Shown here: one piece after another, positions 345-54,257 of the stretch
How the letters are laid out: each line of letters opens with the position of its first letter
How positions within the stretch are numbered: position 1 is the first letter of the stretch
DNA from: Scatophagus argus
Lineage: Eukaryota; Chordata; Actinopteri; Scatophagidae
Direction of reading: 5' to 3'
Length of the DNA stretch: 64,000 bases
NCBI RefSeq assembly: GCF_020382885.2
Contig: NC_058501.1
Location: 15,266,501-15,330,500 of the forward strand
Notes under the pieces: generated by a model
Seen by the model: only the letters and a program-made list of their open reading frames with translations
Database searches by the model: none
What the model was told of the DNA's origin: nothing
Program-made: the position numbers and the translations under genes

Positions 345-428
345 CAACAAGGTGAAGGTTCCCAAGAATTCAGCCATGCATTCTCGCACCAGAGCGTTCC
401 TCACTCGCAGAGCACGTCGCTTCAGCAT
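345..428 (-). CDS. aqp10: Aquaglyceroporin, first coding exon (probable aqp10), partial
   Basis: The 28-codon exon starts at an ATG whose first base is 428 and ends in a GTAAGT donor at 344-339, in phase 0. It reads MLKRRALRVRNALV then RECMAEFLGTFTLL. The block R-x-x-L-V-R-E-C-x-A-E-F-L-G-T-F is the start of transmembrane helix 1 in aquaglyceroporins (AQP3, 7, 9, 10), and these genes have a phase-0 intron at this place. AQP10 conducts water and glycerol across epithelial membranes such as gut. The NPA motifs are in later exons beyond the left edge, so the family is clear but the paralogue is not. AQP10 is preferred because human AQP10 is in 1q21.3 with C1orf43 and SHE. Bases 1-344 look like AT-rich intron 1. 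Confidence 0.75.
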
Positions 429-1950: not shown

Positions 1951-4900
1951 TCATGTTTCCGGGTGTTTAAGAGGGCGACGTAGCACCACGTCCACAGGCC
2001 CGGGGGGCAGTTTTCTGATCAAAGTCCAGGCCTCGAGGCGTCTCATGCCCACCATGCTCACACCGCCAATCTCTAGAACCTCATCACCAGGACACACCTT
2101 GTCCACAGGACCTCCTGAAAAGGAACATTCAGCAGATGGCTTTAATTAACCTTTCTGTGTAGCATTAACTCAAAGCAGATGGATATGTTATTTATACTTA
2201 CTAATTTATCCATTCTATTTGCCAGTACAAACAAGCAACATAAAGCCAACACAAAGATTTTACTTTATTTGAGAAGATACAGAGAAATGATAAAAGGTAT
2301 ACTGTATGTGGAAAATCTTAATGCCACAACAAAACGTGATATTTTAGACAAATATGTGCTTTTTTGATGAACATGACTGTGATTCTGTGCACAAATTGAT
2401 GTCTGTAAACATGTTTTTTCTGCTTTAGACATGGAACAGCTTGAATGGCCTGCAGGCAGACCTGACCTCAACCCCATCTAACACCTTTGGGATGAAGTGG
2501 AGCAGCAAGCAGCAAGCAAAGCATTAGCACCCAAAACCTTACTGTGGCTATAAGGGAGCAAATTCCTGCAGCCAGGCTCTTGTGGAAAGATTTCTCAAAC
2601 AGTGGAGGTGATTATAGTTGTTACATTCAGGATTTGTAATAAGATGTTCAACAAAAACGTATGAGAGTAAGGTTCAGTCTATGTCTGGATTTCTACATTA
2701 TTTTGGCCATCTAATATATTTTGTATTTAATTTTACATTAAATGACATTCACAGCGGCATTTCTCTCTGAAATACTGAGCTTGGGTTCTCACCCTGGAAG
2801 ATCTTCTGTACAGTGAGTGGTCTGTTCTCCGCACTGGAGCCCACGCCTCCCTGCAGGCTGAAGCCCAGATCCCTGCTGTTCTTCTCCAGATGCACGCACA
2901 CACTCTGACCTGAGACAGCAGCAAAAGCAGAAAAACACAGATAGAGTTTATCACTTCCAACTGCTGCATACTCGTGAACAATGTCTTTTTAGATTTCAGT
3001 TAAAGTATGACTTCTCACCTGTCTCACTGAACTCAGTCTGTGTTGGGCCAGGATTATTTGTCTGTGTACCTCCCTTACAGGTAGTGCAAACACCCCCCTT
3101 CCTCAGGACCACCACACTTAAATCCCGAGCCTTTGCTCTTCTCAGGACCCTCAGGGCCTCCCAGTGGACATAGCCACACAGTGATGTGCCATTGATTGAC
3201 AAGACCTGGTCCCCTTCCTGTATGGAGCCTTCCTGGGCTGCAACACCTGAGGGAAACACCTTGTGAACCTGTCAAGAAGACATCGAGAGACAAATTAAGA
3301 GACTGAGAACAATGCATTTAGAGACTTTTTTCAGGAGAAAGCAGATATTTTCTCACAGTGACTGGCTTGTTCTGGTCCACGCCTCCTGCCAGACTGAAGC
3401 CCAGTCCCGCTCCCACCTCCTTGTGGAGAACCACCACCTGCACATCATCATAGTTCTGCAAAGAGGATAGGCAGAGAGAAGTTTAAGAGTCTACATCTAC
3501 ATCAGTAGGAAAATCTATCGTAATATCAACAGCAGATGTAATCCTATTAAATCATATGTATATGTATGTTAATGCCAAAGAAAAATAGGGTCATTCAGAA
3601 TGATCAATGCAACTGCAGGTTCAAAGACAAGTTCAAACCACAACTAAGCCTGTTAAACATTTCTGAAGCCCAGCTGTTTTTACCTTCAGGTTATTGTCCC
3701 CCAGGCTCCTGACATCCTCCAGCAGCCTGTCGAGCTCCTCACTGGGCAGCACAGACACACAGGACAGGGCTGACATGTCAGAGCTCAGCGAGGCAGACCG
3801 GCCTGTAGATTGCCACTCATCGCTGTCATTCTCAGACTCGTAGTCAACTCCAGCAAAGTTACACAGATCTGAAAGACTACAGGGAGGAAACACGAAAGTT
3901 CCAGGGTTTAGAAAACTGACCAGTTGTTAGAAGGAATACCTCTATCATAGCAGAGATCTGAAACAGTACCCACCTGACGCAGAAGCTCCTGCGATCTGAC
4001 TGGCTCATGTTACTAGTAATGGTCACTGATGACTCTCCAGAGTCTGAATCATAGTTTGAATCGTCATCCTTCTGTGTACTTTCATCATCATCCTCAAAGT
4101 TATCTTCACCGTTGTTCCACTCCTTAAACTTTGTATTCAAGCCAGCTGACCAGGCATTCAGGTCCAACACACATTTCTTTCTATTCGGACAGGCTGCATT
4201 AACCTCTGATAACATGAGTTCCAGGGGGTTACTGTGGGATGAAGTGGAGAGGGGATAAGGCAGAGGTGGGGAATCTTGTTTGGATGTTCTGGCTGCTTGT
4301 GTGAGGACAGAGATGCTTTTATTTTCACTGTCTGCAGTGGGAGTTGCATTTTCTGGCTGTGTGGAAGGTGAAAGAAAAGGTGAGTCATTTGGAGTGTTTG
4401 TAGGAGTCTTGTCTTCATTAAAAGACGATGAAAGTGTTGTTTTCTGCGCGCCAATGGAAGCGTCACCAGAGTTGACCAGTAGCAAGGATGGTGGTCTCTT
4501 GTTTGGCTCCTCAGGGCTTGAGATTTTGCAGAAGTCGGTTTCATCTATGTGAACACTCCTAAGCTGTCTTTGAGCTCCTCCATTTAGAGGGATTTCCAGT
4601 GTGCTCTTGAGGCTGGAATATTTATAAAAATCTTGGGCAGAATTGTTGCTACTATCTGTTTCTATTCTTTCATTCTCAACCAAAGCATCCCCTTGTTGAC
4701 CTTTCCTCCCTAATCTCAGTCCAACCTCATCCACTGATAAAGATCTTCCTGACCCCAGCGTCTTTCCTGATGATGTCGCTTTCTCCTCAGTTTTCTCACC
4801 TCCCTCCACGCCCTCTTTCAGTCCGTCCCACTTGTCTCTCAGTCCACCTATTGCTTTTGCTGACCCACTCTTTTTCACTCCGTCATGAACCCTGTTGTGT

Positions 4901-6606
4901 TGTGCTGGCACAGAAAAGGCGCGTCTGGGCTTTAGGTACTGTCCTGTGGCCAAAGCCTGGGATCTCTGTGTAAGAGCTTCAAACTGACTGATCTTATTTT
5001 TCACACTGGCTGCACAGGGGAATGACAACACCTCAGGGAATTTCTTCCTTTCAATTGTATTCATTTTGATTTTTTGCAAGTTTGACTCAAACACATCTTC
5101 ATCTATGCCACTACTCCTCAATTCATTTTTTTCTTTTCCGACAACAGCTGTCTCTTTCTCTTCCTCTTTTTCTTTGAACCACCTAGTTCTTTCTCTCTGT
5201 GTCTTATTTATTCCATTAGTCTCACCCTTTTCCTCTTCATGATTCACCCTGCCCTGATCCTCACTCCCACTTGCCCCTCTATCTCTTGATCTCTCTTCTT
5301 CTAAGAAAGTGTTTGTCGACTGTGGAGGTGCAGTGATTCCTGCTGCTGCCCTTGCAGATCTTATCTGATGTGCTGAAGTGCACCTGCTCTTTAATCTATC
5401 AAGAGACCTTGTACCAAGTTCCTCTGATCCCCTACTCCAGTTAACCTCCCTTTCTTCTGAATACTTGCCGTAGGTCAGTCTTTGCCATTGTCCACTTGAC
5501 AAAATCTCCCTGGTTCTTCTTGTCTCTGGAGAAAGAGAAGCGCCAGAATCTGAAGCGTCTTTCTGTGTCCAGGTGAATGATGACCTGCTTTGCACTGGAT
5601 TAAGGCTACTTTTCTGTTCCGATGAGAAACGCCTGGGGAAAGTTCCCCCTGCTGCCTTCTCATACGACCTCTGCTGTGGCGATGTGAGGGTGTCTGTGGT
5701 TATTTCTTTGTGACAGGATGATACAGGGGTGGAGAAGTCCCTAATTTTGTTGCAGTCCTCCGTTTTACCAAAACTAGCTGACTCATAGAGTTTCTTTATT
5801 CGCTCCAGTATACTCTGACCTCCTTTGGACCCAAACGAAGTAGCTTCCTCTCTGAAAACAGTGCGGTCCCTAAACCTGGAAGGGAGAGAATGACCCCTGC
5901 TGGCCCTGCTCAAAGCCTGGCTCAGTGGGTTTCTCTCTTGAACATCATTACTTGTACTGGCAGTATTGTAGGCCTGTACCGAAGACATCACCCTGCCTCT
6001 CACGCCTTCAGATCTGGTCCTTCTCTCTTCCAAGCAGCCAGCCTCTTTGCTGATGCCCCCTCCAGTTTTGGTTGACAGCACGAACAAGTCAGCCTTTTTT
6101 CCCCGATCAGGACTTCTTTTCCCTGTTCTCCAATCTAAACTTTTACTTCTATTTGGCAGGTTGTATCTCCTCCATTCTGTCCTGCCACGGCTTTCAGATG
6201 CAGGGTTACAGTTTTCACTTGTGTCAGTGCCAAACTCTGTCATTGTTTTGCTTGCAATGGAATTCTGGATCAGCTTGGTAGACATTTTATGGCCTGAGGT
6301 TTCTTTCTCCTCACACTGACCTTTGACACCGCTGTGACTCCTACTCTTAGCTTGATAATCAGCGACTGTGCGATCCTCCACCTCTTCGTTTGTACCGCTT
6401 GTGCGAGTGCATGTCGCATATCCTTGTCTTTCTCTGACTTCCTCAGTGCTCTCCTTCGCCTTCTCTGAAAATCCTCTGGGTTTCCTAACACCTGGCCTGC
6501 GATTTAGACTGTAAGACGGAGAGTTAGCTGAGCGGACAGTGAAGCGTACTCCTGTTCTCTGCTTGTCGCACTCTCCCGCTGAAGTAGGGAACAAGGACAA
6601 GTCCAT
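1951..6606 (-). CDS. il16: Pro-interleukin-16-like protein with two C-terminal PDZ domains
   Basis: Coding exons are 6606-3974, 3876-3684, 3455-3357, 3268-3019, 2909-2793 and 2114-1951. They sum to 3,456 bp and join in frame (1,151 aa). Residues 1 to about 940 are low-complexity, Ser/Arg/Glu-rich and charged, with an acidic patch (DDDESTQKDDD) and no clear domain. PDZ-A (about 946-1030) contains VVVLHKEVGAGLGFSLAGG, then VHKVFPSG and GDQVLSING. PDZ-B (about 1060-1147) contains DLGFSLQGG and CPGDEVLEIGG. This order, the VVVLHKE and TVxKIF blocks and the intron inside each PDZ match the C-terminus of pro-IL16; PDZD2 is the next-best relative. In mammals the C-terminal PDZ is released by caspase-3 as a CD4-binding chemoattractant, while the precursor acts as an intracellular scaffold. 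Here the linker between the PDZ domains has no Asp and the end reads RRPLKHPET, not RRKS. The start MDLSLFPTSAG follows a good acceptor ending in CAG, immediately before ACAATG. An upstream coding exon is possible. The N-terminal PDZ domains of long human IL16 are not seen. Confidence 0.85.
2395..2722 (+). mobile_element. Degraded Tc1/mariner-like transposon, 3' end
   Basis: The plus strand encodes the end of a Tc1-like transposase: WPAGRPDLNPI, an in-frame stop, then HLWDEVE. This is the family's catalytic-region signature (SPDLNPIEHLWD) with the Glu codon turned into TAA. The 3' tail, with CTTGTGGAAAGA and ending TTTTGGCCATCTAATATATT, is also typical of teleost Tc1-like elements. The 5' half and its inverted repeat are absent or unrecognisable. 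It lies in the last intron of the il16-like gene, opposite to its transcription, and is dead. Confidence 0.8.
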
Positions 6607-8298
6607 TGTCTGTGAGTAAACAAAGTTAATGACCACCTGTCAAGTGCCAAATCCCAAAAAGAGAGTGGAAGGGTGAGCTTGATATTTAAGTGATTTCCGA
6701 GCAACTGTCTTTGAGACTGCAACCAAGAAGCAGTATCTCTGAATACTGAGTAGAAACTAGTGAAACAGTGGCACAGTCACAGTCTTTTCATTATACTCTT
6801 GCACGGAAAAAAAAATCCATTAAAAAGTTTGATTATTTAGTGATGCTCCTGATAATTTTCCACTTTGTGGTCTAGAAGAGATGACTCCGCTGGGCTCCTC
6901 TCTTGTCGTTCTGTCCCTTGGATTCTTCAGTTCCCAAACACGGCTTCAGGGAACAGCTCCCATTGCCTGCCAAGCATAAAAAAAGTTCAAATTTCCATCC
7001 TTGGAAAGGATTGGGCTGGAATGTTGTGATATGTGGATTGTGGTCGCCCTGGCTCCTCGAAATGGTCAAAAAGAATCACAGAGTGGTTGAGGACAATGAA
7101 CACAGCATGTTGCAGAGAAGCACATAGTGGACAGAAAATTGAGATATGAAAATGATAGAAGGAAAAAAATAAGAACAAAAGACAGAGCACAAGAGCCAGA
7201 GAAGCAAAAACACTCTACTCACGTCAAACCCCTGTGACTTATATCATTTTCATGTCATGTCATTCAAGTGTCCCTGCCCTCCTAACACTCCCCTCACGTT
7301 GACTCAGTGAGCTCATTCACAGAAGTTGTACACACATATCAGAAAAACTGTTTACACAAGCAACATACTCGTGACTACTTCTCAGTGTCAGCTAAACCCA
7401 AACCAAAAACTGGAAAAACTCACCTAACAGCAATCCATTCCACAAAAACAATGTATTAAAGCGGGACAATAAGTCTCTGTGCAACACACATCGATCTCAT
7501 AGAGTCAAAGAAAGACAACGAGTGACTGAGAAGACGTTACAGTCGATTCAGGTGAAAAAATCAGATAAGATGGACAAAGATGAGGACAAAGTCAGTTTGA
7601 TTTACATACAGCCTGCTGAGAGAAAGATACTGATCATCATGGCTCATCAGGGATATCTGAGTTTACAACCACACACACACAACAGCCACCGAGAGTGAGA
7701 CAGTGAAACAATCCTTGATCGTTAATCTGGTCAGAATTAGGATCCAATCAACTCTACTGACATTCAAAACAAACACAGTATGCTGCTGCTTTACTGTATA
7801 AAAACAACAGGAAAAGTGAATTGGATAAGTGCTGCCTATATAATTATATGAACTATTTTATTAAGTCTAGACTGCAGCGTGTAACTTTGGCAAACACTCT
7901 CTGTGGTGCTTCCCAGTGCAGGTGAGTCTGAGTGTCAGTTTACAGAAACACCTGTTCTGCTAGGTCTCAAAGCCTCCCATCTGCGTAACCCGGGTAACAC
8001 TGCATGGTTTACTTTAAACTCCAATTTAACCGCAGGAAAAACACTAAAATGCACACACTTACTTACTCACAACAAGTTAACTTATTTATCCACTTGCATA
8101 TGATCCTTACCTTCTTTAAGCAGGCCTTCTGTACTTGGAACACAATGTTGACCCGGGTTCACACTGAAGGCAACGCTTAGCAATGACCTCAGCTCCTAAC
8201 TCCTCTCTCTCTCCCCGTCCTCTTCTCTTTTCCATCAGCTTTGCATGATGGACTGTGTACAGTGACGCTAACCTGCCACACTGGTTTATCCTCTTGTC

Positions 8299-8342
8299 TT
8301 CTCTCTCTTTCTTTCTGTCTCTCTCTCTCTGCCTCTCTCTCT
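8299..8342. repeat. CT-rich simple repeat
   Basis: An imperfect polypyrimidine run, mostly CT dinucleotides with TTTC and TGTC interruptions. It is noncoding, and ORFs across it are artefacts of the repeat. Confidence 0.85.
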
Positions 8343-9027
8343 CGTCTATCTCCTCCCCCTCCAATTGTTGTTTTCTCGCTCTTTTCCTCTTCTCACAGGG
8401 TAACATTCCTGACTACAGTTCCATATGTCACCCACTAAATGGTTCAACAGGGAGTGTGCGCGCGCGCACACACACACCCTACAGAATATTCAAACGCCAT
8501 CTCACATCAGCATTTCATAGCTTAAGGGAGAAGAGATACTGTTCAGATAATTGTGTGAAACAGAAAACAGCCAACACAGGCTTACAGTATCACCCTCCTC
8601 ACCTCAGGCAAACCTGAGTCTAATCATCCGGGCTGAGCAGATATCAAAATACATAATAACAGAGCACCTTTAATTGGGACCAGAGACCACAAAGAGCTCA
8701 TGTAGACCCACGAATACCAGCAGGGAAAAATATTGTTAAAAGTATACCTCTTGTGTGACATATATTCAAAAAACAGAGATTCATTGCAGACAGACTTGTT
8801 GAGAGTTTGCAGCACTGTAATGTCAACTCAAGGAGAAAAGTATCAGAGATTGCTGATTAGTTTTAGTTTCCATACAGAAGAGGTATTGTTTGGTGGGATT
8901 CTGGATTCTGCAGAGTGGGAAGGTGAACAAACAGCCTTTGAATCACAAATGTACAAGGAGCAAGCAGGATAGCAATCAGATATAGATAAGAATATAAAGT
9001 AAAGGAAAAGACTATGGCGGTACTTAC

Positions 9028-9078
9028 AGGTTTGGTTGACATGTAGAGGCTCATCTTACTGCTGCTTTTTTCATGCAC
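9028..9078 (-). other. Candidate upstream exon of il16-like gene
   Basis: The minus strand has an ATG at 9078 opening 17 codons (MHEKSSSKMSLYMSTKP) that end exactly at a strong donor (CCT|GTAAGTACC). Spliced to the acceptor before ACAATG at 6609, the frame continues as TKP-T-MDLSLF. This would add an 18-residue N-terminal extension, or the exon may simply be 5' UTR. There is no homology support, and other leader exons could lie between. Confidence 0.3.
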
Positions 9079-9764
9079 CTGCTACTGTCTTCCGTTGAGA
9101 CAGAGGAAACTGTGGTCAACAAGTCAGCAAACTGCAAAGCTGTATGACGATGTCTTAATGCCTCTCTGCACATATCACAACTCAAAACAGACTGAGTCAG
9201 AGACATTGATCCTAGGCCAAGTCTCGGGACCCTAATGATCCAATCGATGATTAACCATACAGACAGAGGGCTGGTAGGTTGCATGATCATCTCAGGACAG
9301 AGATAACTCTGTGAGTAGGGTTGAATGGCTCCAGTACGACTCCACAGACACCCACCCTTGTTGTGTCAGAAGAATGGCACCCAGTGTCTCTGCAGGATGG
9401 ATGCAAATCACTGTCTTGCTCACACAGACACGCTGGTTTTTCAAATTCATTCTTCAGGGTGTAGGTTAAAGGAGTGTGGTTTATGGGGTTTTTTTACCAT
9501 TAGATTACAGTGGGTAAAAATACTCTACATTGACAAAAATACTGGGATGGGGCTGTTTTTCAGAGGTTCTCGGCCCCTTACTTCCAGTGAAGGGTAGTTA
9601 TAGTTGGGGAATTGAGGAATTTACTGGCGTGTATGTATTTCTTAATGACACTGGTAGAGCTGGAAACAGGATTCACTGGCTGTTGGTTTCTGTCACTGTA
9701 CAGTTTCTTTGTCATTTGTGTTTGTTAATCCGTTTGTTGGGTGGGTCGTCTTGAAGTCACCTTA

Positions 9765-10062: not shown

Positions 10063-12372
10063 ATGGGGAGCGATTCTCTTCTGTCCAGCATTAATGTGGT
10101 GCTTGTTATGGCCTACGGAAGTCTGGTATGTCTGTTTAACGTTGTAACAGTGTTAGCTGAAGTTTAAACTCGCTATGTTAGCAGTGTAAAAGATGACCTC
10201 CGAAGCATAGAGACTGTCAAATCAACACTTACAGTATTTTACAGCCGCTTTAGAATGAGTATGTTCCAGCGTTTAAAACTTATCAGACGTTATTTTCTAG
10301 AGCCAAACTGACTCTTATAAGTGTGCACATTAGAAGACAGGATCACCATATCAATGCATTGGGGTTTTTGAAACTTTTCTCCTTATTTTAGCTGCTTAAT
10401 CCAAGTGATCATCACTAACGGTTGATCCCTTCACCTCCATCATTATGCATTTATCTCATTTGTTTTCTGTCAATACGTTGTGGTATTGCCAATTTCAGTC
10501 GAACTATTGATATTACTACTTTTAACTAACAAGTGATTGAAATATCTGGTGTGTGCTGTCTTCCAAACAAATACAGAGTTTGTGGTGAATATTGTACAAA
10601 AACAAAGTTGAGTCACAAACATAATTTTGCCTTGTTTATATCTAACATATAAACATTTTAGAAAAGCAAACCCAACAATATGTGAAAACAATTTTTACTT
10701 CAAATCATGAAAGAAATCAGTATGATTTTTTTTTCTCTTTTAATATATTAACCTGATTACTTACATGTTTAAGAATGTATGTATATTTTATTTTGTTATT
10801 TGGCTCTGTTTATCATTTACTAGCCTGTTCTTCATTACACTTAAGAAAACTCAAAAGAGTCTTTGACCTGAGTGGAAGCTGGCTCTTGACTGCCCTCTAG
10901 GTGTTTGTCTTGCTGTTCATCTTTGTCAAAAGACAAATTATGCGATTTGCTATGAAGTCTCGGAGAGGTCCGCATGTTCCCCTTGGCCACAATGCTCCTA
11001 AGGTAACACACACTATAATGAACCAGAAATATGAAGCTGTTCATTGTTTTGCTGATTAACTTTTAATAAAGCCAAGTGTTTTTGTGTGTGTTTGTGTGTG
11101 CATGTGATGTAGGAGCTGAGACAAGAAATTGAAGCCAAACTATGCCAGGTCCAGAAAATCCACTTTGAGCCTCGTCTGCTGTCCCCAGATGATGACCGAC
11201 TAAACCAGTCTGGTACACAATCATATACATATACTCCCACACATTTGCACAGCAGTTCTGAAACGACCTTCTTGAGTGTGTGTGCATGTTGCAGGTTCCT
11301 ATGACTACCTGTACAGGATGAGAGCACTGGATGCCATCAGAGACTCTGGTAAGCTTTGCTGTCGCTCATCCTAACTGTTCTAATTCTCATGATGGACTAT
11401 GAATCCTTCCCCACTGTCACAATACCATATGCTCTGCTTCCTGCCACTAGATCTTCCTTTCCATGAGCTGGGTGGGTCTTCCTCAGCTGTGACAGGTAGA
11501 AGACTTCGGACCTGGCTTCTAAACCTAAGAAATTCCCAGTGCATGTTCCGAGACAGTCTAAAGACCCTCATCGACACGGTGCTGGATGGCTACAATAAAG
11601 CACGGCATGGGGCAGAGGTCAGTGTCTTTGTGTCCGTCTGAGACTTATTATCTCCTCAAACGGTTCATGACGATGTTGTCCTACACGGTGCCTTGTCTAA
11701 ATTAATAACAAGAAAATTGAATTCATGGAACGTTATTTATAAAAGTCGAACAACACCAGTACCTTGTAGTTCATTACTGTAAACATCCATTTCTTATATG
11801 TATTCTAGCCTGCTGTAAATTGTTATCCTTATGATTGACATGATTTTTGTTTTAGCCATAGTTCATCCTGTTGTGTTGCTCTTATCTTGTGATTGCTTGA
11901 AAAGCTGACTGAAGTGTACTGATGTCTTGTTTGGCTCCTGTTATATTTATATATATATGTTGTTATATGTAGGCATTTGGTGAGGCAGAGTTTTTGAAAT
12001 ACCAGGAAGCTCTGACTGAACTGGCCTCCATGTGAGTAAACACAACCTTTCCCCGCAGTGCTCCCTTACAGCTTTCCGTTTATGCTAATCCCGTCATGGA
12101 ATGTTAATTATGCACTGGGAAAAATCCATTCTCCCTTCGTTGTTTTTAGCATCAAGTCTCACAGCAGCAGCGGCAGCTCTCCGAGCCAGCACCACCAGTC
12201 TGCAGCCAAAGACCTGACCAGCACCACGGAGCCTGCGAGCTCCTCCTCCTCCTCCCCCACCCAAACCACCTACCTCACATCTACAATGCAGCAGCGCAGC
12301 AAGCGGCCCAGACACTTCCTGGAGCTGAAGAACTTCAAAGACAACTACAATACTCTGGACAGTTCGTTCTGA
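10063..12372 (+). CDS. c1orf43: C1orf43 (NICE-3) homologue, single-pass membrane protein
   Basis: Seven coding exons are 10063-10125, 10901-11002, 11113-11212, 11295-11348, 11451-11617, 11973-12031 and 12150-12372. All junctions are GT-AG, the total is 768 bp and the product is 255 aa, close to human C1orf43. The N-terminal membrane segment at about residues 10-33 (VVLVMAYGSLVFVLLFIF) runs into VKRQIMRFAMKSRRGPH. The family signatures DYLYRMRALDAIRDS, FGEAEFLKYQEALTELAS, HHQSAAKDLT and the C-terminus HFLELKNFKDNYNTLDSSF are all present. C1orf43/NICE-3 is reported at the Golgi and mitochondria and linked to phagocytosis and keratinocyte differentiation; its biochemical role is unknown. The start is fixed by the family N-terminus (SSINVVLVMAYGSL). 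A fish-specific Ser-rich stretch precedes the conserved tail. Confidence 0.97.
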
Positions 12373-13172
12373 AACTCGGTGATGTTTGTCCAAAAGAAAA
12401 GGTCAAGAACAAGGTAGTGCTGCCGGTGATTAAAGTGCCTATGCACGGCGATGGGTCACCATCACCAGATAGTTTAGAGTACAGTGATAAAAACACTGCC
12501 TTTATATACTAACACGTATTGCCTGGTTTATAGTAAAATGCATATCAGACTACTAGCACAGTGCTCTTTAACTAAGTGTAGCTTATGTGTACATCCTGTG
12601 TTAATGCATGTGCAAGTGCCATGATTGGTTAGAGAAACAATGACAGTACTTGTGTGTACGGTTGATTTGACCAAAACAAAACCAGAGCTATGGAGCTATG
12701 CAATGGCATAAGACAATCAGTATCAGTATTTATTGCACAATGTAAAGGCCTATGCAGACTTGTTACAATTACCCAGATGTATTTAAACATGCTAATAGTT
12801 AACAGTGTTTATAGAGTAAACCAGTGTTAGTGGTTGCCTCACACTGAGAAAAACACACTGTTTATGTTTACGTCTATCTATGTCTCTGTCAGCCTGTTTC
12901 GCTGAGCCTCAAACTTTTGTTTTACAGAAGCCATACTTGATTTAACGAATTTTGATTGTTAAGTGCTCTTTTGATTTCTTTCAGTGCAATGTAGCTTAAA
13001 TGTATTTCAATAAGTGAATGTAAGGTATTGCATCAGGTAAGTCTCTTTCTTGACTGGCCCTCAGATGTCTAATCTGTGTGGTTCTATTGGAATTCAGGGA
13101 GTCCCAGGGAGGCATTTTCATGCCTGAATAATTTTAGTTTCTGTGATGCTTATTGTTACAAGTTGCCATTCA

Positions 13173-14401: not shown

Positions 14402-17400
14402 TCACGACTTGATCTCGATGACTTTGATGAAAGGGAGTGGTTTGTTTGATGAGGTGGATGGCTTGATTGGTTTACTGAAGGGACAAGAGCAACAGAAAAT
14501 GGATGTTTTTTTAAATATATTGTAACAGCATAGAAACAAAGATAAGTATGCATCTTGTCTAGATGTACAACTAAAATAAGTAAATATTTGAGTGTGGGCT
14601 GTATTTACTGTATTTTTAATTTGCAACATCAGATCATTTGATCTTGTTTGGAAAAAATAAACTGACAAGGAAAATAAGTTACCTGTAGACAATCTGGGGG
14701 TTGCGCTCAGAAGACAGGTAGGAATTTGACTTTTGTCCTCCCAGGTAGTAGTCCATCTGGTCACGCATCTCTCGGTTCTGCACGCACAGGAGGTCAGGGG
14801 TCAGTCTACATAATACCAATTAATGCTACCAAATCTCCTTCCCTTCCACATCTCCTCTCTTTCTCTCTCTCTCTGCCCAAATCAGACTGAGCAGGAACAG
14901 TTTCCTCTTTCTCCTGCCCCTCACTTCAATTCAACCCTGACCTTTCATCCTAAATCCCACTGAAATGTCACATGAACACTTGTTATAGGAGAAAACAATG
15001 AACAGTCCTCACCTCAGCCTCCAAGAAAGCCACTTTCTCCTCCAGCTCTTTAATCACGCGGTCCCTCTCCTGGATCACCATGCGAGAGTTCTGGAGCTGC
15101 AGACAATCGAATACAGAGTCAAACAGTGAGCGAATCCTGCTCAAATAAGAACGCAGAGAGCTGAAAGTTGTTTGCTTTACTGAGTCTCGCACATGTGCGT
15201 CTCACCTGTTCAATCATGTGTCTGACTTTCCTTTGCTGGCTTTTCAGCATGTCATCCAGATGGTGGATCTTTTCTTTGAGGATGGCCACCTCCCTCTCCA
15301 ACTGCTCAGCCCTACAAGTCAAACACAGAGAGTTGGCACACGCGACTCCTAATTTGACTGTCACTCACGCAAAAGAAATCATTTATCCATTTACTGTGTG
15401 TGTGTGTGTGTGTGAGCGCTGACCTCTGCTCCCCCTTCTGGCCCTCCTCTCTGATCTTGCGCAGCTCACGGAGTTCCTCCTCCCGGTTGCGGATCGTCTC
15501 CCGCAGGGTGGAGCTCTCCTGCTCCATCCCTGCCAGTAACCTATGGAGCTCCTCTATGCGCTTGTCTTTCCTCTCACTGGCTTCCTCTGCAGTCTCCAAC
15601 TTCTCCTGCTGTTCGCTCAGATGCTCCCTCAGCCTGCTGCCTTCAGCCTGGAAGAGACGGGACAAAAAAAGAGGGGACGCTTTATCCCTTTGGTTTGTTT
15701 AAAATGTGGGGTACATTATTTGTCATGCCGCATGTAAAAATAAGCTCTCTGTGAGTTTGTTACCTGCAGCCGCTCTTTCTCCTCTTGGTGTTTCTTTTCT
15801 GCTTCCTGGAGCTGTGCATACAAGCGCTTACTGACCTCCCTCAGCTTGGTTCTCTCTGCTTCTTCATCTGCTTCCTAACAGGGAAAGAATAAAGTTTTAG
15901 ATTAGGAGATGATTACTGTAATGTCCTGTCGTGGTCAACTCGGAGTGAGGATCTTCCAATTGAGAATGTGTGATTGAATCTCTGCTCAACCTGACTGAGT
16001 TTAAGTAGTTTTCAGGGGAGAAAGTGTGTCCAGACGCTCAAAGCTGAGTCAAGGACGTAATGAGTGCCAAACATGCATCTGCTAAATACTGGGCACTGAT
16101 TGTGCCAAAAAAGATCACATTAAATCCTCTCTGATTTTGTAAATGATTCTGTAAAATAATGAAACATAAAGAGACACAAATCCAGACAGATCTTTTATGA
16201 TGATATTGTAAAATCTTGTTTTTGTTTCAGTCAAGCTCAGTGGGTTCGGCTGTGATAAACAGGCGTGTCAGCGTGCGTCACTGAAGCAACACTTGTATTG
16301 CTAAGCCGTAGCGTGACTCACAGATAAATGCTATAATTGGTGCAAAACAATTCAGCCAAACACAGCAGTATCAGCTCTGGTGTACTTGTCCAAAACATCA
16401 GTGTAAGACTGTAGTGGATACTTGAAGTGCGTGGCTCGAAGACAACAAAACTGTTAAAGGAGAGGTATCTGTGGAATGCTGGAACAATGAGGAGGGCCTG
16501 AATACAATAACAGATGCAGGGAGAGGAACAGTGTGTGCCGGAACGCCTCTCTCACACGTTTTCATACACCCCAGGGTGCTGTAAGTAATTGTCTTTTTGA
16601 TCCCGTCTCACTGCTTGTCTCTGTTTAACTTTACGCCTCTTTGTACTCATGTGCCTCTGGTAGGAGACGGCTTTACAGGCATCACACACCAGCATGCACT
16701 GCCCACAGGAAAATACAGACTGCACTTATGGTATGCACATGAGATTTGATATGTGCACTGCCTCAACTGAAAGAGCTCACATATACTTCATAAACAGAAC
16801 CCTGAATGGACTAACTAAAAACTAAACTGCTAACCTGTCCGTCAGCTTTAGATCCTGCCTTGGGTGCAGATGAGGAGCTCTTTCTGAAGGGAACACCAAC
16901 TTTCCACCCGTTTGTGAGAGGCTGGAAAGAAAAAAGGAGGAAGTCAGCAAGGAAAGGGTGAGAGATGGAGAGGTGGAGGAAATGCCATTAAGCACATGGG
17001 ATGTTAGGTTAACAATGGTGAGGTCACGACAAAGCAGCTCAAAATAGGCCTACCTTGTTTTTGGCTGCCATCTGCTCCCTCAGTGTCTTCAGGCAATACC
17101 TCACCTGTGTAAAACACACAAATATCCTAAGCTAGTACAACATCATCATCTGCCTTTGACATAACATAACATAACAAGTTTTTGTTTCAGGCTCTACCAA
17201 ATGACTAACAAGATTTTGTCATCAAGAGAGACAACACGCCTGAAAGAAAAGCAGGCGGATGACGTAAACATGCACTATGTTACATAATCCAGAAACAGCA
17301 GCGGGAGTGCAGCGCGTTTGCGTGTTGTGAGACGCTCAGAGCCGGTCTGGATTCTGTCTAAAAACTGACCTCCTGTATCTGTGAAACTTCATCCGACAGC

Positions 17401-32313: not shown

Positions 32314-32846
32314 TTAACAGGAGCTGGTCTGGAGGTTGCTTTCAGTGAGGATGGAGGTGATAGTGGAGGGGTCATACAGGCTGTCGTCCTCATCTGAACT
32401 GAGGGCTGATGAATCCAAAACTGGGCGCATCGCTGCACTGGTTTTTCTCCTGCGACACATTATCATCATTGTCATCATTAATTGAGACTCACTGTCATGT
32501 GCTACTTATTTTACTCATAAATGCTGCCAGGTAGTCACAGTGCACCCTCTGCTGGCAATATAGGAAAACAACATGCATTTCCTTGATACTAGTAGGAGCA
32601 TGTCTGGAACTGAATTCCCCCTCTGGTACATGATTAATGTGCCATTTTAGTTTAATGCAATAACTTTTCTCATGTGGGTGATATCTGATACGTTTCACAC
32701 CCATCACATTATGAAACACTGCACCTCTGGGAATCTGTGTCAATCTCTACCAGGTGTGTGTAACAGTTTAAGAATCTGGGCTCACCAGTAATAACGTCAT
32801 TTACGTGCAGTTTTATTTGTTCTGTCACATAAGCAGGAGGAGATAA

Positions 32847-32881
<35 letters not shown>

Positions 32882-35800
32882 CACTCACACAAATTGCACT
32901 TGTAATATAGCTGCCAGGAGGTCTTTTATAAGCAAACTGCATGAGAAACACAACCAGAAACAAAGAAAAGGAAATGCTTACTTGAGTTCAGTCTCTAGTG
33001 CAGTGACTCTGGACTGCAAGGCCTCCTTAAGCTCCATCTGTTCCTCCATGTCTCTCTGAGCCTTTCTCCTCAGTCCATCTATCCTCTCCAGCTCCGTTTC
33101 GCCTTCATCCACCTGCCTCTTAAGAGCTTTCACTCTCAGAGTGAGCTGCCATAAAAGACAAGATTATATATTTGATATACTCCCATGTTCACATTCTGAC
33201 ATAGCAGGATGTGAATGTGTATACCTGGTCTCTCTGTTCAGTGTGTGTGTGTCTCTCCTCATCCAGCGTCATGTTGAGCTCTTTTAGTTTCCTCTCCAGA
33301 CGTCGCTGAGATGCCAACACAGAGTTCTTTTCCCTTTACAAATACAAGAGAAGAACAGAGCATAAGACAAAAATTCAGGCAGGCATGTTAATGATGAATA
33401 TTCTCCCTATCTCAGCTGCCAAAATGGCCTCGAGCAACACATTTGTTATCTCGCTGCTCTGATGAGAGTAGCCGGGTGTTGAAATCTGGCTTTACTGGGC
33501 TCTTGTCTGAGTATGCATAATTGAATTAATGTGAAGTGGAATGATCGCTTGATGTTAGATTGCAAAACATAGCTCCTGAAACTTTGAGATATTTGGTTGT
33601 CAAACAAACCAGGGTGAAAAAAGGAAGATCCACTGGACTGCAGTGTGTTTTCTTGCTGTTACACCGTACCTCTCCTCACTCCGTAGACGTTCTTCCAGAT
33701 CCTGAATCTTGTTCTCCATCTGGGACACTCCTGCTGAGGAGCGGGATTGGCCTTCCATGTCAGCCACACGACTCCTCAGTTCTTTCAGCTGCAGGGAGAG
33801 ACACGGACAAACAGCAGGTCAACAATATCCACCATATGCCCAAGTGGAGGGTCTAAAGGTACGTGTTCACCTAAATGCAGTATTTTGAATTTCAGCGAAG
33901 ATGCGAAAGTACAAAGAGTGAAAACTTTTTAGCAAACTGAATACTTCAGTTAAAGAGCACAGATGTCACAAACAGAGGTGTGTCGTGTGTTTGTACATGT
34001 CTCTCCATGGCGTTTTTATCCAGCTCCAGGTCTTGTTTGGAGGACCTCTCCTGCATGAGCTCAGAGCGCAGCTGATCGATCTGGTCTCTGCTCCTGGTCA
34101 CTCGGTCTGTCATCATCTCCACAGCGCTTTTCTCCTCCTCCAACTCCAACTCCACACGCTTCAGCTTGTCCTGAGAGAGACGAGATGAGATCAACTTTAT
34201 CAGATGCTTGAAAAGGAGACTGTAGTGGACCAGCCCCACTGACATTAGATTGTGCTGAGTTTGGACGTGTAAGCATGAAAATGTAATAATGGAGTATATG
34301 CATGTTAAGCACAACTACATCCTAATGTATTAACTGTATTTGTTTGACTTATGAATGAAACGTGTCCAGAAACATGCACCGACTGTTATACTAACAATGA
34401 ATGCTACTGACAGCAGAACGCCCTGTAATAGCCATTGTTTGTTTTCTCAAACCATCAGGCGAGTGGACGCACATATCTTACCTCCAGGATGCGAATCTCC
34501 CGGGTTTTCTCATTATAGCTGTTTTTGCTGGCCTCAAGCTCTCCCTCAAGGTGGCGCAGTCTGTTGGCGAGAAGCTCTTTATCCAGCTGGTGGTTGTCTC
34601 TCTCTTCGCATGCAAGCAGAAGCTCCTTCTTGTGTCGTGACATCTGGTCAGATTCATCATAATATTGGAGGCAATAATGCCAGACTGAATGTTCATCATT
34701 GTGCAGTTTTGCATGTTATATCACACAGGCACATAAATACAATCGGCCAAGCGTGCACCATGAATATTGTGTCAAAACTATTGGAAACAATCAGATCACA
34801 CATCATTTTCATAATAAAAACAACAGTCAGACCAAGCGGGTGAGTAAGCATGCAAACAAACACTTGACAAAATAAAAAACAAACAAACAAACAAACAAAA
34901 AACACGCACTTCTTCTTCCAGTCTCCTTAGATTTAGATGACTTCTTTCCAATTCACTTTGAGCGTCATTTCCATGACGATGCACCTCCTGCATTTCCTTG
35001 CGTGCCCTCTCTCTCTGCTCCTCCAGCTGAACCCTGAGAGCCTGCGCCTCTTCTCTTGAGGACATGATCAGAGACTCATACTGTCAGAAGACACCGGGAG
35101 GGAGAGGGGGCAAAAAAATAAAAAAGGGTGATTTTTTTTTGTGCTCTGAATCCTCTAATGAGCAGTTGGATGCTGCAGAAGCTTTCATTTGTATGCAAAG
35201 ATATAAAAAGAAGTTCTCCTTACCTCTTTGTTGAGTTTCTCCAGAGCTCTCTCCTGCTGGTGTTTGGTCTCTTCCAGCTGGTTGACGGTCTGTTTGAGTG
35301 CCTCCTTGTCTTTCTCTGCCTCTTCCAGCCGCAGGTTAATGTCATGGTGCTCCTGGCTCAGTCTGGAAGCCTTTCGTTTGGCCTCGTCTAGCTCAGATCT
35401 CAGCCCTCTCACCTCAGCATGCAGGGCGAGCTCTGCCTCTGAACTCTCTGTGGCATTGGTCTGCAGCTGAGCCTGAGGAAACCACAAAGGATATCCATTT
35501 ATGCTTAAATATATCTACTGCTTTCAGTGCATCCATGCCCCACTGTGGTGCGTGAGACGGGGTGACCTACCTCTAACCGTGAAAGTTTCTCTTTGAGACG
35601 TATATTGACCTCCTCCTGCTCCTGCTGGGCATCTTGGAGTGATTTAATGTCCATCTGAGCTCTACTGAGACGTGTTTTACTGGCTTCTAGTTCTTCCTCA
35701 GCTAATGAGAGTTTCTCTTTGAGCTGGTTAGCTTCCCTATGAGCCTCATCAAGCTTCTGCTCCAGCTCTGAGATGATGGCTGGGTTTGGAAGCTATCGGC

Positions 35801-38800
35801 AGGAAGACAGGGGAATGATATTAACAAGAGAGATGATGAAGAGTAAAGATGAGACTTTGGAATCTAAATAATCCCTTCAGGTTGCTTTAGCCCCTTGTTG
35901 TAAGATTTAACAAACCTGTTTGTTTTTCTGATGTGCCTTAGCGAAATCTTCTTTGGCCCTCTGTAACTGGTCCTTTAGCCTGTCGATCTCATACTTCAGT
36001 TCTGCCTCCTGTTCCTGGTGAGATTTTTTTAAGGAGATGATCTCCATGACCTTCTTGTCACACTCTGTCCTCTGCTTCTCCAACTCCAACTTCGCCTTCT
36101 GTAGATCAGCACTGTATCGCTCACGTTCCTGAACAGGGATATGAACAATATGATGGTTAAGTTGCTTCTATTTAGTGAAACAGGTCAGGTCATTGACCTG
36201 TGCGTTAGCGATCATGTGGGCCTGAGTTTATGTTTACTGCACCTGGTTGAGAGACTGAGCGTGGTTAGGGTCCGGTATCTTTTGTTTCATGGTGTTCACT
36301 TTATCCCGGAGGTCCTTTACTTCTTCCTCAAACTCTTCTTTTTCCAGACGAGCTTGAAGGAGTCTAAAAAATGTAGACCAAATATAGCTGAACTAAACAA
36401 ACTGATCCACATAAACAACCACAAAAAGCATTGACTGATTGTCTGATTAGCAGCTTTTGAATTGTATAGGTTTATTGGTTTGTATAGTCAGCTTAATATA
36501 TTTTTGATGAGTCATTATTTAATCTTCAAATAATAAAGAAATAAATCAGCATTTCCTGTTACTAATTAGAAGACAGACATTTTCACAAAGAACGAGTCTG
36601 GAACTTTTTCTTTTGTTACTAAACACAGAAACTTAAGGTCATCCACACAACTTCTTTGTATTCATACAGTCCCGATTCTAAAAAAGTTGGGGATACTGTG
36701 TAAAATGTAAATAAAAACAGAACGCAATCATCTGCAAACAAACTGTGTTCACTGACATCAGTTTTTCTTTGTATATTATCTTTGTAGTGTTTTCAATCAA
36801 GTCTATGTCAAAAAAGAAACAACAAGCAAATTATCACATTCCTACATTACATTCCAACTTTTTAGGAATGTGGGTTGTAGTTTCTGTTTGCATACAGTGT
36901 TACACTGCATGGACACAATGAAAAGGTAAACAGCCACGTAAAAATGTCATGCCCTGAAGTTCAAGACTGTGACTGGTGGTCAGCACAATTTCTGCTGCAA
37001 CCACAGCAACAAGTACTACCAATACTCCCATTAAGAAGCGTGTACATGAGGATCCATGGTACAAATATGAACTTCAGTCAGGAGTTTGAGGTTTTAAGTG
37101 TGGATGGCCTTGGAACTACAGTCAGACAGTTGTTAGTGCAGCTATTCATATCTATAAATCTGCAAATCTGTTCAACTAGTGACTCTCACGGTGCTTCGGG
37201 GCTGCTGGGAGGCTCTCTGACAGAGAGGGGGAGAAACATTGACCAGGTAGAATGGAAGAGAAGAGAGACACACATTAGTAGCACAGTAGGTGCAAAGAGA
37301 AACCATGAAAACAAGGTGACAAAACCCACGTCCAAGTAAACGCTGGAAATCCCAAACCCAGGTAGGTAATAATGAACACACATGTTGAACAATAAGAATA
37401 ATGGAATAAACTCACTCTTGTTTAGTTGTTCTGAGTTCGTCTCTGGTGGCATGAAACTGCTCCATCCAGTGGTTGCTTTCATCTCTACAGTCTTCCAGCT
37501 GCTGCTGTAGGGACCGAACTGACGCATTTACACGCAACCGCTCTGCCTCGATCCCTGCGTGAGACTAGAACAGGACAAAGAAGAATTTAGAGCATATGTG
37601 ACAGTGTCCTCTCCAGTTTCAACGACACCGATTAATATGTAGATAGACAGACTGCTGGGCAGAGCTTTATTTCGAGAGATCAGGTACAAAATGTTGTTTC
37701 TTTCCACTATACAAGAAAAGAATTTGCAGGGGAAGTGGGATAGTGCACCTACACTGAGCATGTTTAGTGCACCTGTGCATGCAGCTTCCCCTCTGCAGAC
37801 ACTCCTGTGTTCTTGTCCTCAGGCTTTCATCAGGGGAGTTCAAGCTTTCATCACAGTACTCAGAGAGGCAGTACACCTGAAGCCATTTTCGTTATATGTC
37901 TATGTACAAAAGATGTTACTGTAAATGTGGGTGCTGTAGAAATAACTTGGATGGAAACTGAAGTGAATATAAATTTAAGCACTAAAATAAGAGTGCTTTT
38001 ATCCAGATTCCAAAGCACAGTGCAGCACGGAATTATAATAGTAAAATATTTTTTTACAGAGATGGGGTGTTAAAGCTTGTATGTCAATATTCATAGTTAA
38101 TGTCAAGCTGGTTTGAAAAGCCTCCCTCTATCTGTGGGTTCGAAGAAGCCTGATCTGCATACACACTAAATACCAATTACAATGAAAGAACCTCTTCTCC
38201 AATTTATTTAATCATATATACAATCTGTAGGGCTCAGATTTGATCTCAGCAGCATGCAGGTAATCCTGTCAAAATATCCTTGAGTTTGAGTCATGGGTGA
38301 TCTACAAGTTAATTCTTGAAAATCACTCCAAACAAATCTACTAAAATCCAGAAAATTGTCATTGTAAAGGAAAAAACTGAGAAACATGAGGAGGTGGTTT
38401 TTCCTCATAGGGACTGTTGTTGAGGGACTGGTTTTCCAGTGTCTAATGGGACAATGAGCTGTATACTGTGTATGTGCACACACCTGGGACACCTGCTCCA
38501 TGCTGCTGCGGAGCTTCTCCATGTCAGCGCTGTACTGCTCTCGGAGCGTCTCCATCTCTTTGTCATGGCCGGCCACCTCTTCCTTCAGAGCTCCTTTGAG
38601 GGCCGTTAGTTCTCTCTCTCTCTGCCTTAAGGTCTCCTCCAGCTTCTGTTTCAGTTGGCACACCTCCATCAGCTGTGCCTGACAAGACATCAGGTCCTGC
38701 AAACACAGAGAACATATAGCATTAACTCCATACTTTTCATCTCTCAGCCCACAGTTTGTACAGGTTTGCTCATTTATAGAAACAAAAATGCTTTCTTAAG

Positions 38801-41621
38801 AAGTAATTTAGTCTTGATTTGAGTCTGAAGTTGTTTTTAAAAATCCATTAGTGGGGTGAGATACTTTCTCTTTATGTATCTGTGTGGGTGTATTTATTTG
38901 AATATGTTTCTGCGATACCGTCTTGTTTCCGTTCTCTCTTCTCAGTTCATCCTGAAACTCAGCCAGCTGGTCCTCCATTTCTCTGACCCGAGCCTCTGCG
39001 TTCTCCCTGTCCATACGCAGCTGAGTCAGCCTGTGAAAAGAGGACGGTCACACGCACACACAACTGAATGATTTGAATTCAACTGACTATGGCACACTTG
39101 TTTGTCTTGTGAATAAGTTACAGTAACTGCTTGTCTTATGAAACTGTTGAGAGCACATCCTTGAAAACAAAATGGGCTTGTTATGCTCCCGTATCACTAT
39201 ACACTATGGTACCCTGGCCCTCCGTCTATGTGTGTGTGTGTGTGTGTGTGTTTGCTGTTGAGTCCTCACTCTGATTGTGTTTCATTTAATTCTTTCTTCT
39301 TCCGGTCCAGCATCTCTCCGAGCTGCAGATTTTCATCCAGACAGGACTCCAGCTCAGCTTTCAGAGCGGGATCAGAATTGCTAACAGAGTCCTACACACG
39401 AGCAGACATGATGAATAAATGAGAACAGTGAAACATTAGACATCAGGCAGCTCTGGTGACATAAACAATGTGCTTTTAGGAAATGTTAAAGCTGGCTTGA
39501 ATTTGCCCACCAATCAATATGCATAAGGGATTAAGTTCTTAGGAGCTATTAGAGATTAAGACCTGCCCACCTTCCTTAAGACAACATATAATGAGTCATT
39601 ATTGGAGTTAGATTATAGTGTGTGTGTGCACCTTTGACTAGCTCAGAGGGCTTTAAGGATTAATCCTCAGATTAATCTGAAGCACACTCCAAGGAACCGA
39701 CCCAGCACTCCTGGTTAGATTATTTAAAAAGACATAAAAAGTCCAAGTACTGTTTCCTGCTCTCGAGCAACCAATGGCTATTTCCTTCACTTTTTTAAGT
39801 TGGTGCTCTCATTTCAAGGAGACTTTGGATGAGTGTTTGTGTGGCACTGGACGTGCAGCATGTAATTAGAGCTGATTTAAAGTGGCAGGTTGCTCTCTGA
39901 ATGTTAACAGGCTCTGCTGGCAGCCAGTTCCAATCAGCCGAGAGAACTGAAGGAAGTTTGGTGGGTCATCCAAGGGAACTACAGTAACAACCAAAAACTC
40001 TAAAATAACTCTAAAATAAAATTGTGTCTTGAATCAAATATTTCACTGCACCTAATAAACTCTTCTAAATTTCTGTATTATCCTGTATTTGTAGTATTTT
40101 TTCTTTTCTCACCCTTCTTTCCTCTTGCAGGGCACTTTGTAGTTCAGCCACCTTTCTTTCAAGCACCCTCTTTTCTCTCATCCACTCTTCCTGGTGTCTT
40201 TCTTTGGGCTGCTCAAAAAAAGGCATATAGGCACATACATGTAAGCAGTACGCTCTTGCCATTTCTTTACCTGACATATGAGTCATATGAGTGTAAGTGC
40301 AAGAACACACGTTTAAGAGATTTCCAAACCTTTAGATTCTGAATCTTCTGAGAGATGACCTTGACTTTGTGCCTGATGATAACATCACTCTCAGTGCTCC
40401 TGAGGGAAGGAAAACAACAAATTTATATGAACCTAATCCTGGATAACCACTGTATTGTGACAAGTCAATAAAATCTCTATGTGTTTGCCAGGACAACATG
40501 TAGGTCCATACCCTTGTCTCAGGATGTTGTATATGGTCTGCATGGCCTGCTCCTCCTCACTGTTCATCTCTGCACTCGGACCCTGGTCCAGCAAAAGGTC
40601 AGGAGTCACCTTGAGACATAGATCAGAAAACTACTCTTGCAATGTCCCATATTATGTGGTGTTCTAAACTCACTGCAAGTGTATGTCCAGCCAAAAAACA
40701 TTTCATTCTCACCTGTGCCTCAGTCAGATTGGCCTGTGGCATCTCCACAGCAGCATGCCACTGATTAGAGGAGTGTCCTGGAAATTTCGTGACAGCACCC
40801 TGGCTGCGTCCCAAGCTGCTGTGAGTTGAAGATGGAGGAGAGGTGTAGGCAATGGGGGTGAGGAGAGGAGGTGTAGCCCTGGGGTCTTGTTGCACAGGAG
40901 GGTGTCCTCTCTGTTGGACTCCAGTGTTACCACCATCAAATCTGTTTATCAGTCTGTTGACAGGAGTCTGCCTCTGATTAGAGGGTTGCTCATTTGTTTG
41001 TCGAGATGAGTCAGAGTAGTCCTGACTGCTCCTCAGTGGCCCGTTGAGCCGTGCTTTGTACGAACCATCCCACATATTCCTCTCCACATCCCTCTCTCCA
41101 CCCCTAACATGCCAGACCTCTTCTCTCTCTGCCCTTTGTCCAATTCCCCCATCCAGATTCCCATAACTACCAGACTTCCCATCCCCTGGTGGCCGAGACA
41201 GCTTAAAATCCTCTTTGCCTGCCCCTCCTTCTCCATCTCTGTCCAGCAGCGAGCCATGAGACTGGGCCCTGCGTAGTGCGCCTCCCTGCCCTCCTCCTCC
41301 TCCCGCTCCTCCTACATCTCCCCCTTCTGTTCCTGGCTCTGCCTTCTCTCTCCTCCGAGGAAGGCTATTATAACCGGAAGGGTACTGGGTCCGGAGCTGG
41401 ACCCCGTATGAGTCTCCTTTCTCTCCATCCTTGAGGAACACATATGGCTGACCAGCAATGCCCTGCACCCTGACTGCCACGCCGTATTTGGAGGGGGCCT
41501 GAGCCTTGGTCTTGGGCTGGGATCCGGGCTGCCCCCCACCAGCGTCACAGAGGTCATTGATGAAGCGGATCTGGACACCATAGTCCACTGGGATCTTCTG
41601 ACCTGAAGATGGTGTGCTCAT
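32314..41621 (-). CDS. cgn: Cingulin, tight-junction scaffold
   Basis: Nineteen coding exons are 41621-40713, 40609-40512, 40399-40330, 40211-40113, 39391-39270, 39030-38919, 38696-38484, 37564-37416, 36363-36243, 36128-35916, 35792-35571, 35472-35224, 35080-34910, 34643-34482, 34170-33997, 33788-33670, 33333-33225, 33145-32982 and 32449-32314. They total 3,612 bp and 1,203 aa, and every junction keeps frame. The head (1 to about 330) is disordered, with VDYGVQIRF at 12-20 and [14 protein letters not shown] at 46-59, the conserved N-terminal region tied to ZO-1 binding and junction recruitment. Residues from about 340 to 1150 form a myosin-like rod ([33 protein letters not shown]). The acidic tail ends [20 protein letters not shown], nearly identical to mammals. 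Cingulin links tight junctions to actin, microtubules and RhoA regulators (GEF-H1, p114RhoGEF). The start is the first Met after an acceptor (TTGCCAG|CATGAG); exon 1 is noncoding, near 46.4 kb. CGNL1 is excluded by the tail and synteny. Confidence 0.97.
32541..32557 (-). promoter_or_regulatory. CTCF-like motif in last cgn intron
   Basis: The minus strand reads TGCCAGCAGAGGGTGCA, matching the CTCF core CCAGCAGRGGGYRC. It lies about 100 bp upstream of the last cgn coding exon. Confidence 0.55.
32850..32877. repeat. (CT)14 microsatellite in last cgn intron
   Basis: A perfect CT run in the intron between the last two cgn coding exons; on the transcribed strand it is (GA)n. Confidence 0.92.
34879..34901. 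repeat. (CAAA)n run next to a cgn donor
   Basis: About five CAAA units lie immediately downstream of the cgn exon 13 donor (GTGCGTGTTT at 34909-34900 on the minus strand), so the start of this intron is T/G-rich in the transcript. Confidence 0.8.
36665..36879. mobile_element. Internally deleted Tc1/mariner-like MITE
   Basis: The left end after a TA dinucleotide reads CAGTCCCGATTCTAAAAAAG then TTGGGGATACTGTGTAAAAT. The right end reads CATTCCAACTTTTTAGGAAT then GTGGGTTGTA. These are diverged inverted repeats of a widespread teleost Tc1-like family whose full copies carry a transposase. Here only about 215 bp remain, flanked by TA as expected for this superfamily. It lies in cgn intron 8. Confidence 0.8.
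39228..39251. repeat. (TG)n microsatellite
   Basis: About twelve TG units in cgn intron 5, within 25 bp of the donor of the exon ending at 39270. Confidence 0.88.

Positions 41622-47999: not shown

Positions 48000-54257
<6,258 letters not shown>

Follow-up and report, generated by a model that had tools for sequence, protein, structure and literature searches.

We analysed a stretch of 64,000 nucleotides from Scatophagus argus (hereafter the window, C9:15266501-15330500 of a genome of 570.7 Mb in 48 contigs) and found, on the minus strand at positions 1951-6606, a gene of the IL16/PDZD2 family. This gene, which we call il16-like, is most likely a third family member and an ohnolog from the two early vertebrate genome duplications (2R), located in a block of human 1q21.3 type. 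The gene structure, the family assignment, the separate il16 and pdzd2 loci of the same genome, the block synteny and the common intron positions are shown below; the 2R timing, the loss in mammals and the function are inferences. The 2R events would have left three genes: il16-like in the 1q21.3-type block, the canonical il16 on a chromosome of 15q type and, on a third arm, pdzd2. Of the two block copies produced by the teleost duplication (3R), the one on C9 alone would have retained il16-like. Mammals seem to have lost the gene, none of IL16 type being known in human 1q21.3. An earlier note on this DNA had suggested such an ohnolog, and the synteny supports it.

The gene model has six exons and five GT-AG introns. 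Its reading frame is open over 1151 codons, giving a protein of 1151 amino acids in which a long linker-like first exon is followed by two C-terminal PDZ domains, PDZ-A and PDZ-B (Table 1). The presence of an IL16-like gene at this place, as first proposed, is thus borne out by an intact model with domains of the IL16 PDZ3 and PDZ4 types. Since an acceptor CAG lies directly upstream of the ATG of exon 1, the gene likely has one more 5' exon, either non-coding or coding. Pfam PDZ matched two stretches of the protein (E=7e-23). In the phmmer comparison with PDB, the best match of PDZ-A was human IL16 1x6d (PDZ3, E=3e-28) and that of PDZ-B was human IL16 1i16 (PDZ4, E=1e-22). The next family was DLG4, with 7e-22 summed over three domains and 2e-5 for the best single domain. 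The N-terminal PDZ1 and PDZ2 were not found in the window: of 2172 six-frame open reading frames (ORFs), the PDZ model matched four, all of them PDZ-A or PDZ-B exons, and the next had an E of 1.2.

Introns A, B and D of the window gene coincide in position and phase with those of fish il16. For intron C no donor could be identified in fish il16, and the position of intron B is also present in pdzd2 on C4. The agreement of introns A, B and D indicates that the copy arose at the DNA level and excludes a retrocopy. As judged by its C-terminal PDZ pair and these common intron positions, the window gene is a member of the IL16/PDZD2 family. The gene shares with IL16 the final PDZ pair and the preceding SEEL block, three introns that agree in position and phase, the EAW-motif Trp of PDZ-B and an RR close to the C-terminus. 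It differs from IL16 in that PDZ1 and PDZ2 were not found in the window, the linker is not recognisably related, the PDZ-A/PDZ-B linker has zero Asp and the chromosome block is another one; compared with human IL16, PDZ-B is three residues shorter. With PDZD2 it has in common the C-terminal PDZ pair, one intron and a large linker exon, whereas it is less identical to PDZD2 than to IL16 and lies in another block. The linker intron count was considered as a rare-change marker and dropped, since il16 likewise has a large linker exon.

The window's own genome was searched with three queries, PDZ-A, PDZ-B and human IL16 PDZ3+PDZ4. The human CGN, TUFT1, SHE, AQP, PDZD2, CGNL1 and RORA query sequences, and the human IL16 used for the four-domain comparison below, were not taken from a database. 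All three queries agreed on one IL16 locus on C1, at approximately 1.924-1.944 Mb, in addition to the window gene on C9, and the whole-genome search with PDZ-B at E≤0.001 matched C9 and C1 only. The C1 gene carries all four IL16 PDZ domains, with identities to human IL16 of 80-83% (PDZ1), 64-67% (PDZ2), 67% (PDZ3) and 61-73% (PDZ4). It has stard5 on one side and tlnrd1 (76%) about 40 kb off on the other, C1 being the only place in the genome with a tlnrd1 match; we take the order stard5-IL16-tlnrd1 to be that of human 15q25.1. MESD gave no match in the loci compared. The C1 gene is the canonical il16. A second IL16 locus beside 15q25 markers, for which the earlier note had advised a search, therefore exists next to stard5 and tlnrd1 and is the locus most similar to human IL16. 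By its neighbours, and with no N-terminal PDZ domains found in the window, the window gene does not look like the IL16 orthologue: stard5 and tlnrd1 flank the C1 gene, and these two and mesd are absent from the window. ORFs resembling by eye pieces of Tc1/mariner transposase lie near il16 on C1 (L009 9110-9433 and L014 1257-1637).

A more distant locus, on C4, was found with the PDZ-A and human IL16 queries. Its gene matches human PDZD2 at 82/148 residues vs 66/148 for human IL16, and on this comparison it is pdzd2. The window gene is accordingly neither the only il16 of the genome nor PDZD2 itself, the two outcomes that had been named as contrary to an ohnolog. Exon identities to the human IL16 PDZ3+PDZ4 query were 64, 58, 69 and 76% for C1, 56, 52 and 63% for the window gene, and 50, 36 and 65% for C4. 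In pairwise comparisons of PDZ-A and PDZ-B, fish il16 and human IL16 agreed at 65/93 and 59/89 residues. The corresponding values for the window gene were 56/92 (61%) and 39/87 (45%) with fish il16, 53/92 (58%) and 44/87 (51%) with human IL16 and, lowest, 44/90 and 27/87 with pdzd2. By these identities, fish il16 goes with human IL16 and the window gene stands further off.

Two side observations concern the C4 locus. The exon for the first half of pdzd2 PDZ6 (L016/L017, C4:27.358-27.363 Mb) lacks a GT donor where il16 and the window gene have theirs; the domain is strongly diverged, and this exon may be decaying or spliced differently. In addition, an ORF near pdzd2 (L017, about 8280-9590) resembles by eye a non-LTR (non-long terminal repeat) reverse transcriptase. 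The PDZ-A and human IL16 searches also returned further PDZ genes, mostly with lower scores. A weak C2 match to human IL16 PDZ4 (53%, E=7.6e-4; L039, C2:14826801-14830300) was set aside as a different PDZ protein; further PDZ exons surround it, and it resembles the IL16 PDZ1 and PDZ3 types too. Weak PDZ matches on C18 and C6 were likewise set aside. Scans of viral contigs and genome contigs for stray vertebrate relatives found none.

The window gene is placed between an aqp10-like gene and tuft1-cgn-she, and these four genes agree with human 1q21.3. In the marker search, she-cgn-tuft1-aqp10 recurred on C17 (7.65-7.74 Mb) in the same order as in the window, which makes C17 the 3R sister of the C9 block. 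The C17 tuft1-aqp10 interval (C17:7708001-7738000) holds two ORFs with no other place in the genome at E≤0.001, which we take to be hax1-like and ubap2l-like. The pattern suggests that the two 3R copies underwent reciprocal loss, with C9 retaining the IL16-like gene and C17 hax1 and ubap2l. The canonical il16 contig, C1, also bears cgnl1 (72 and 66% to CGNL1 vs 51 and 49% to CGN). CGN/CGNL1, cited earlier as an ancient duplicate shared by the two regions, is represented by cgn in the window and cgnl1 on C1. As expected of an ohnolog, the block of the window gene is paralogous to the blocks of its relatives. The distribution of il16-like on a 1q21-type arm, il16 on a 15q-type arm and pdzd2 on another is that predicted by a fourfold paralogon, which favours a 2R ohnolog. 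Like those 2R ohnologs that fish retained and mammals lost, the window gene is an extra member in the expected paralogous block, with four block neighbours; it differs from them in that its gene tree leaves the timing undecided.

Several observations weigh against the 2R timing. We compared trees of the PDZ region containing the window gene, fish il16 and human IL16 with fish pdzd2, human PDZD2 or both. All nine topology tests (IQ-TREE user trees) accepted all three trees. Eight of the nine weakly preferred the window gene with fish il16 and the ninth preferred the 2R-type tree, with log-likelihood differences of 0.002-1.45. The bootstrap value for the window gene with fish il16 was 77 in the four-taxon run, where the informative sites were split into 4 for the 2R-type split, 4 for the window gene with fish il16 and 2 for the window gene with human IL16. 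In the three-way counts, 80 sites were equal in all and 42 joined fish il16 with human IL16; the remaining patterns were balanced, with 15 sites joining the window gene with fish il16 and 17 joining it with human IL16. PDZ-A of the window gene is slightly closer to fish il16 than to human IL16. No IL16-like relic was seen in the C17 sister interval (30 kb read; about 8 kb beside the C17 tuft1 match lie outside it). Because C9 and C17 together account for about 8.5% of the genome, arrival there by chance has a non-negligible probability. The evidence comes from one vertebrate genome, that of this fish. The 2R claim is based on synteny, not on the PDZ tree.

The main rival explanation is that fish il16 was duplicated after fishes and tetrapods diverged, by 3R or by a single-gene DNA duplication, and that the copy reached the 1q21.3-type block, evolved fast and lost its N-terminal PDZ domains. 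The topology preference, the PDZ-A identity and the 3R sister block without the gene are in its favour, but we consider it unlikely. The 3R sister of the C9 block is the one on C17, not that on C1; tlnrd1 is confined to C1, and stard5, tlnrd1 and mesd are missing from the window. PDZ-B is closer to human IL16 than to fish il16. The window linker gave no match to the fish il16 linker exon at E≤10 with default statistics (7.7e-4 uncorrected), whereas the human and fish il16 linkers match at 2e-14 with default statistics and 1e-23 uncorrected. Such a duplicate also requires a chance move into the ohnologous block.

A copy of pdzd2, or a tandem-duplication gene older than 2R, is very improbable. 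PDZD2 has the same C-terminal PDZ pair and the PDZ-A intron, and over the first half of PDZ-A human IL16 matches C4 a little better than it matches the window gene (65%, 7e-5 vs 63%, 3e-4). However, human IL16 favours the window gene in the other two exons present in both (56 vs 50% and 52 vs 36%), and the window gene has its lowest identities with pdzd2 and higher ones with il16. That the window gene is the fish's sole il16, translocated into the 1q21.3 block, is an idea to which its IL16-like PDZ-A and PDZ-B gave some appeal, and it is refuted in this assembly by the separate four-PDZ il16 with its 15q25.1 neighbours on C1.

We next consider what the il16-like protein may do. In IL-16, the caspase-3 site is located between PDZ3 and PDZ4, and the Trp of the EAW motif of the human protein plugs the peptide groove. 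IL-16 is made as a precursor from which a caspase-3 cut frees the C-terminal part (PMC12171437). The 38-residue stretch between PDZ-A and PDZ-B of the window protein contains 0 Asp. Given a linker without Asp where caspase-3 releases IL-16, and no N-terminal PDZ domains found, a role as a secreted cytokine looks unlikely on the sequence. No signal peptide was seen by eye in the window protein; the EAW Trp of PDZ-B and an RR close to the C-terminus are retained. The il16-like protein probably acts as an intracellular two-PDZ scaffold.

Table 1. Exons of the il16-like gene and neighbouring genes in the window.
Feature	Position	Strand	Remarks
il16-like exon 1	3974..6606	-	ATG and about 877 codons of charged, low-complexity linker
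il16-like exon 2	3684..3876	-	Conserved LPSEELDRLLEDVRSLGDNNLK block, which in IL16 stands before PDZ3
il16-like exon 3	3357..3455	-	First half of PDZ-A (IL16 PDZ3 type)
il16-like exon 4	3019..3268	-	Second half of PDZ-A and most of the PDZ-A/PDZ-B linker; linker without Asp
il16-like exon 5	2793..2909	-	First half of PDZ-B (mature-IL16/PDZ4 type)
il16-like exon 6	1951..2114	-	Second half of PDZ-B, C-terminus RRPLKHPET, stop codon 1953-1951
Aquaglyceroporin, first coding exon, read as aqp10	345..428	-	Best PDB match AQP10 6f7h, E=0.002
tuft1 exons (tuftelin coiled coil)	14998..15844	-	Human query not taken from a database
cgn (cingulin) exons	32317..41591	-	Human query not taken from a database
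she (SH2 adapter) exons	48003..54242	+	Human query not taken from a database

The assertion that all other genes of the window match 1q21.3 held for the four named neighbours and not for every gene, as about 6.7-15.0, 15.9-32.3, 41.8-48.0 and 54.3-64 kb are unassigned. The aquaporin stretch just outside the window scored 244 bits with AQP3 and 221 with AQP10, and the name aqp10 for the window-side gene therefore depends on the exon 1 match and synteny; for the C17 sister aquaporin, AQP10 was best (182 vs 153 bits). Pfam gave nothing convincing on six unexplained window ORFs. Between the IL16-like gene and tuft1, plus-strand open frames at 12040-12509 have a conserved-looking end, KNFKDNYNTLDSSF, and no Pfam match. 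A ROR-type nuclear receptor DNA-binding domain at C9:15168012-15169173, at a distance of 97 kb from the window, would suit the rorc of a 1q21.3 block.

Among the paralogon markers on C1, the aquaporin and SH2-adapter assignments are the weaker ones. The C1 aquaglyceroporin, 88 kb from cgnl1, is ambiguous (AQP10 214.5 bits, AQP9 207.5), and the C1 SH2 adapter is nearer SHF than SHB (82 vs 74 and 102 vs 97 bits). Other SH2-adapter copies are SHF or SHB on C15 and lean to SHB on C6, and a C7 aquaporin is AQP9 or AQP10. ROR-type domains were found, with identities to RORA, on C9 (73%), C1 (96%), C7 (94%), C4 (86%), C13 (81%) and C6 (75%). MEF2 boxes were present on C9, C17, C1, C7, C4, C20 and C6, the match on C1 being one joined across stops. 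These ROR and MEF2 matches are given by type and not by paralogue. A short tuft1 probe did not detect MYZAP, the 15q partner of TUFT1.

In the literature search, none of the matches listed described, by title or abstract start, the window gene or an IL16 ohnolog in 1q21.3. Ohnologs retained by fish but lost by mammals form a well-known class, which limits the surprise of the window gene. The gene would add one member to the 1q21/15q paralogon. Among cytokines IL-16 is unusual, being a PDZ scaffold from which cutting releases a chemoattractant. Tentatively, the IL16 family may have had at least three 2R members, of which the lost 1q21.3 member could be an intracellular protein with two PDZ domains from which no cytokine can be cut; the release of a cytokine might then be confined to the 15q copy, and studies of fish 'il16' may have mixed two genes. 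If il16-like is a third ancient member without the cut site, it would help to date the rise of the cytokine role, and fish immunologists should be cautious, as two IL16-type genes exist.

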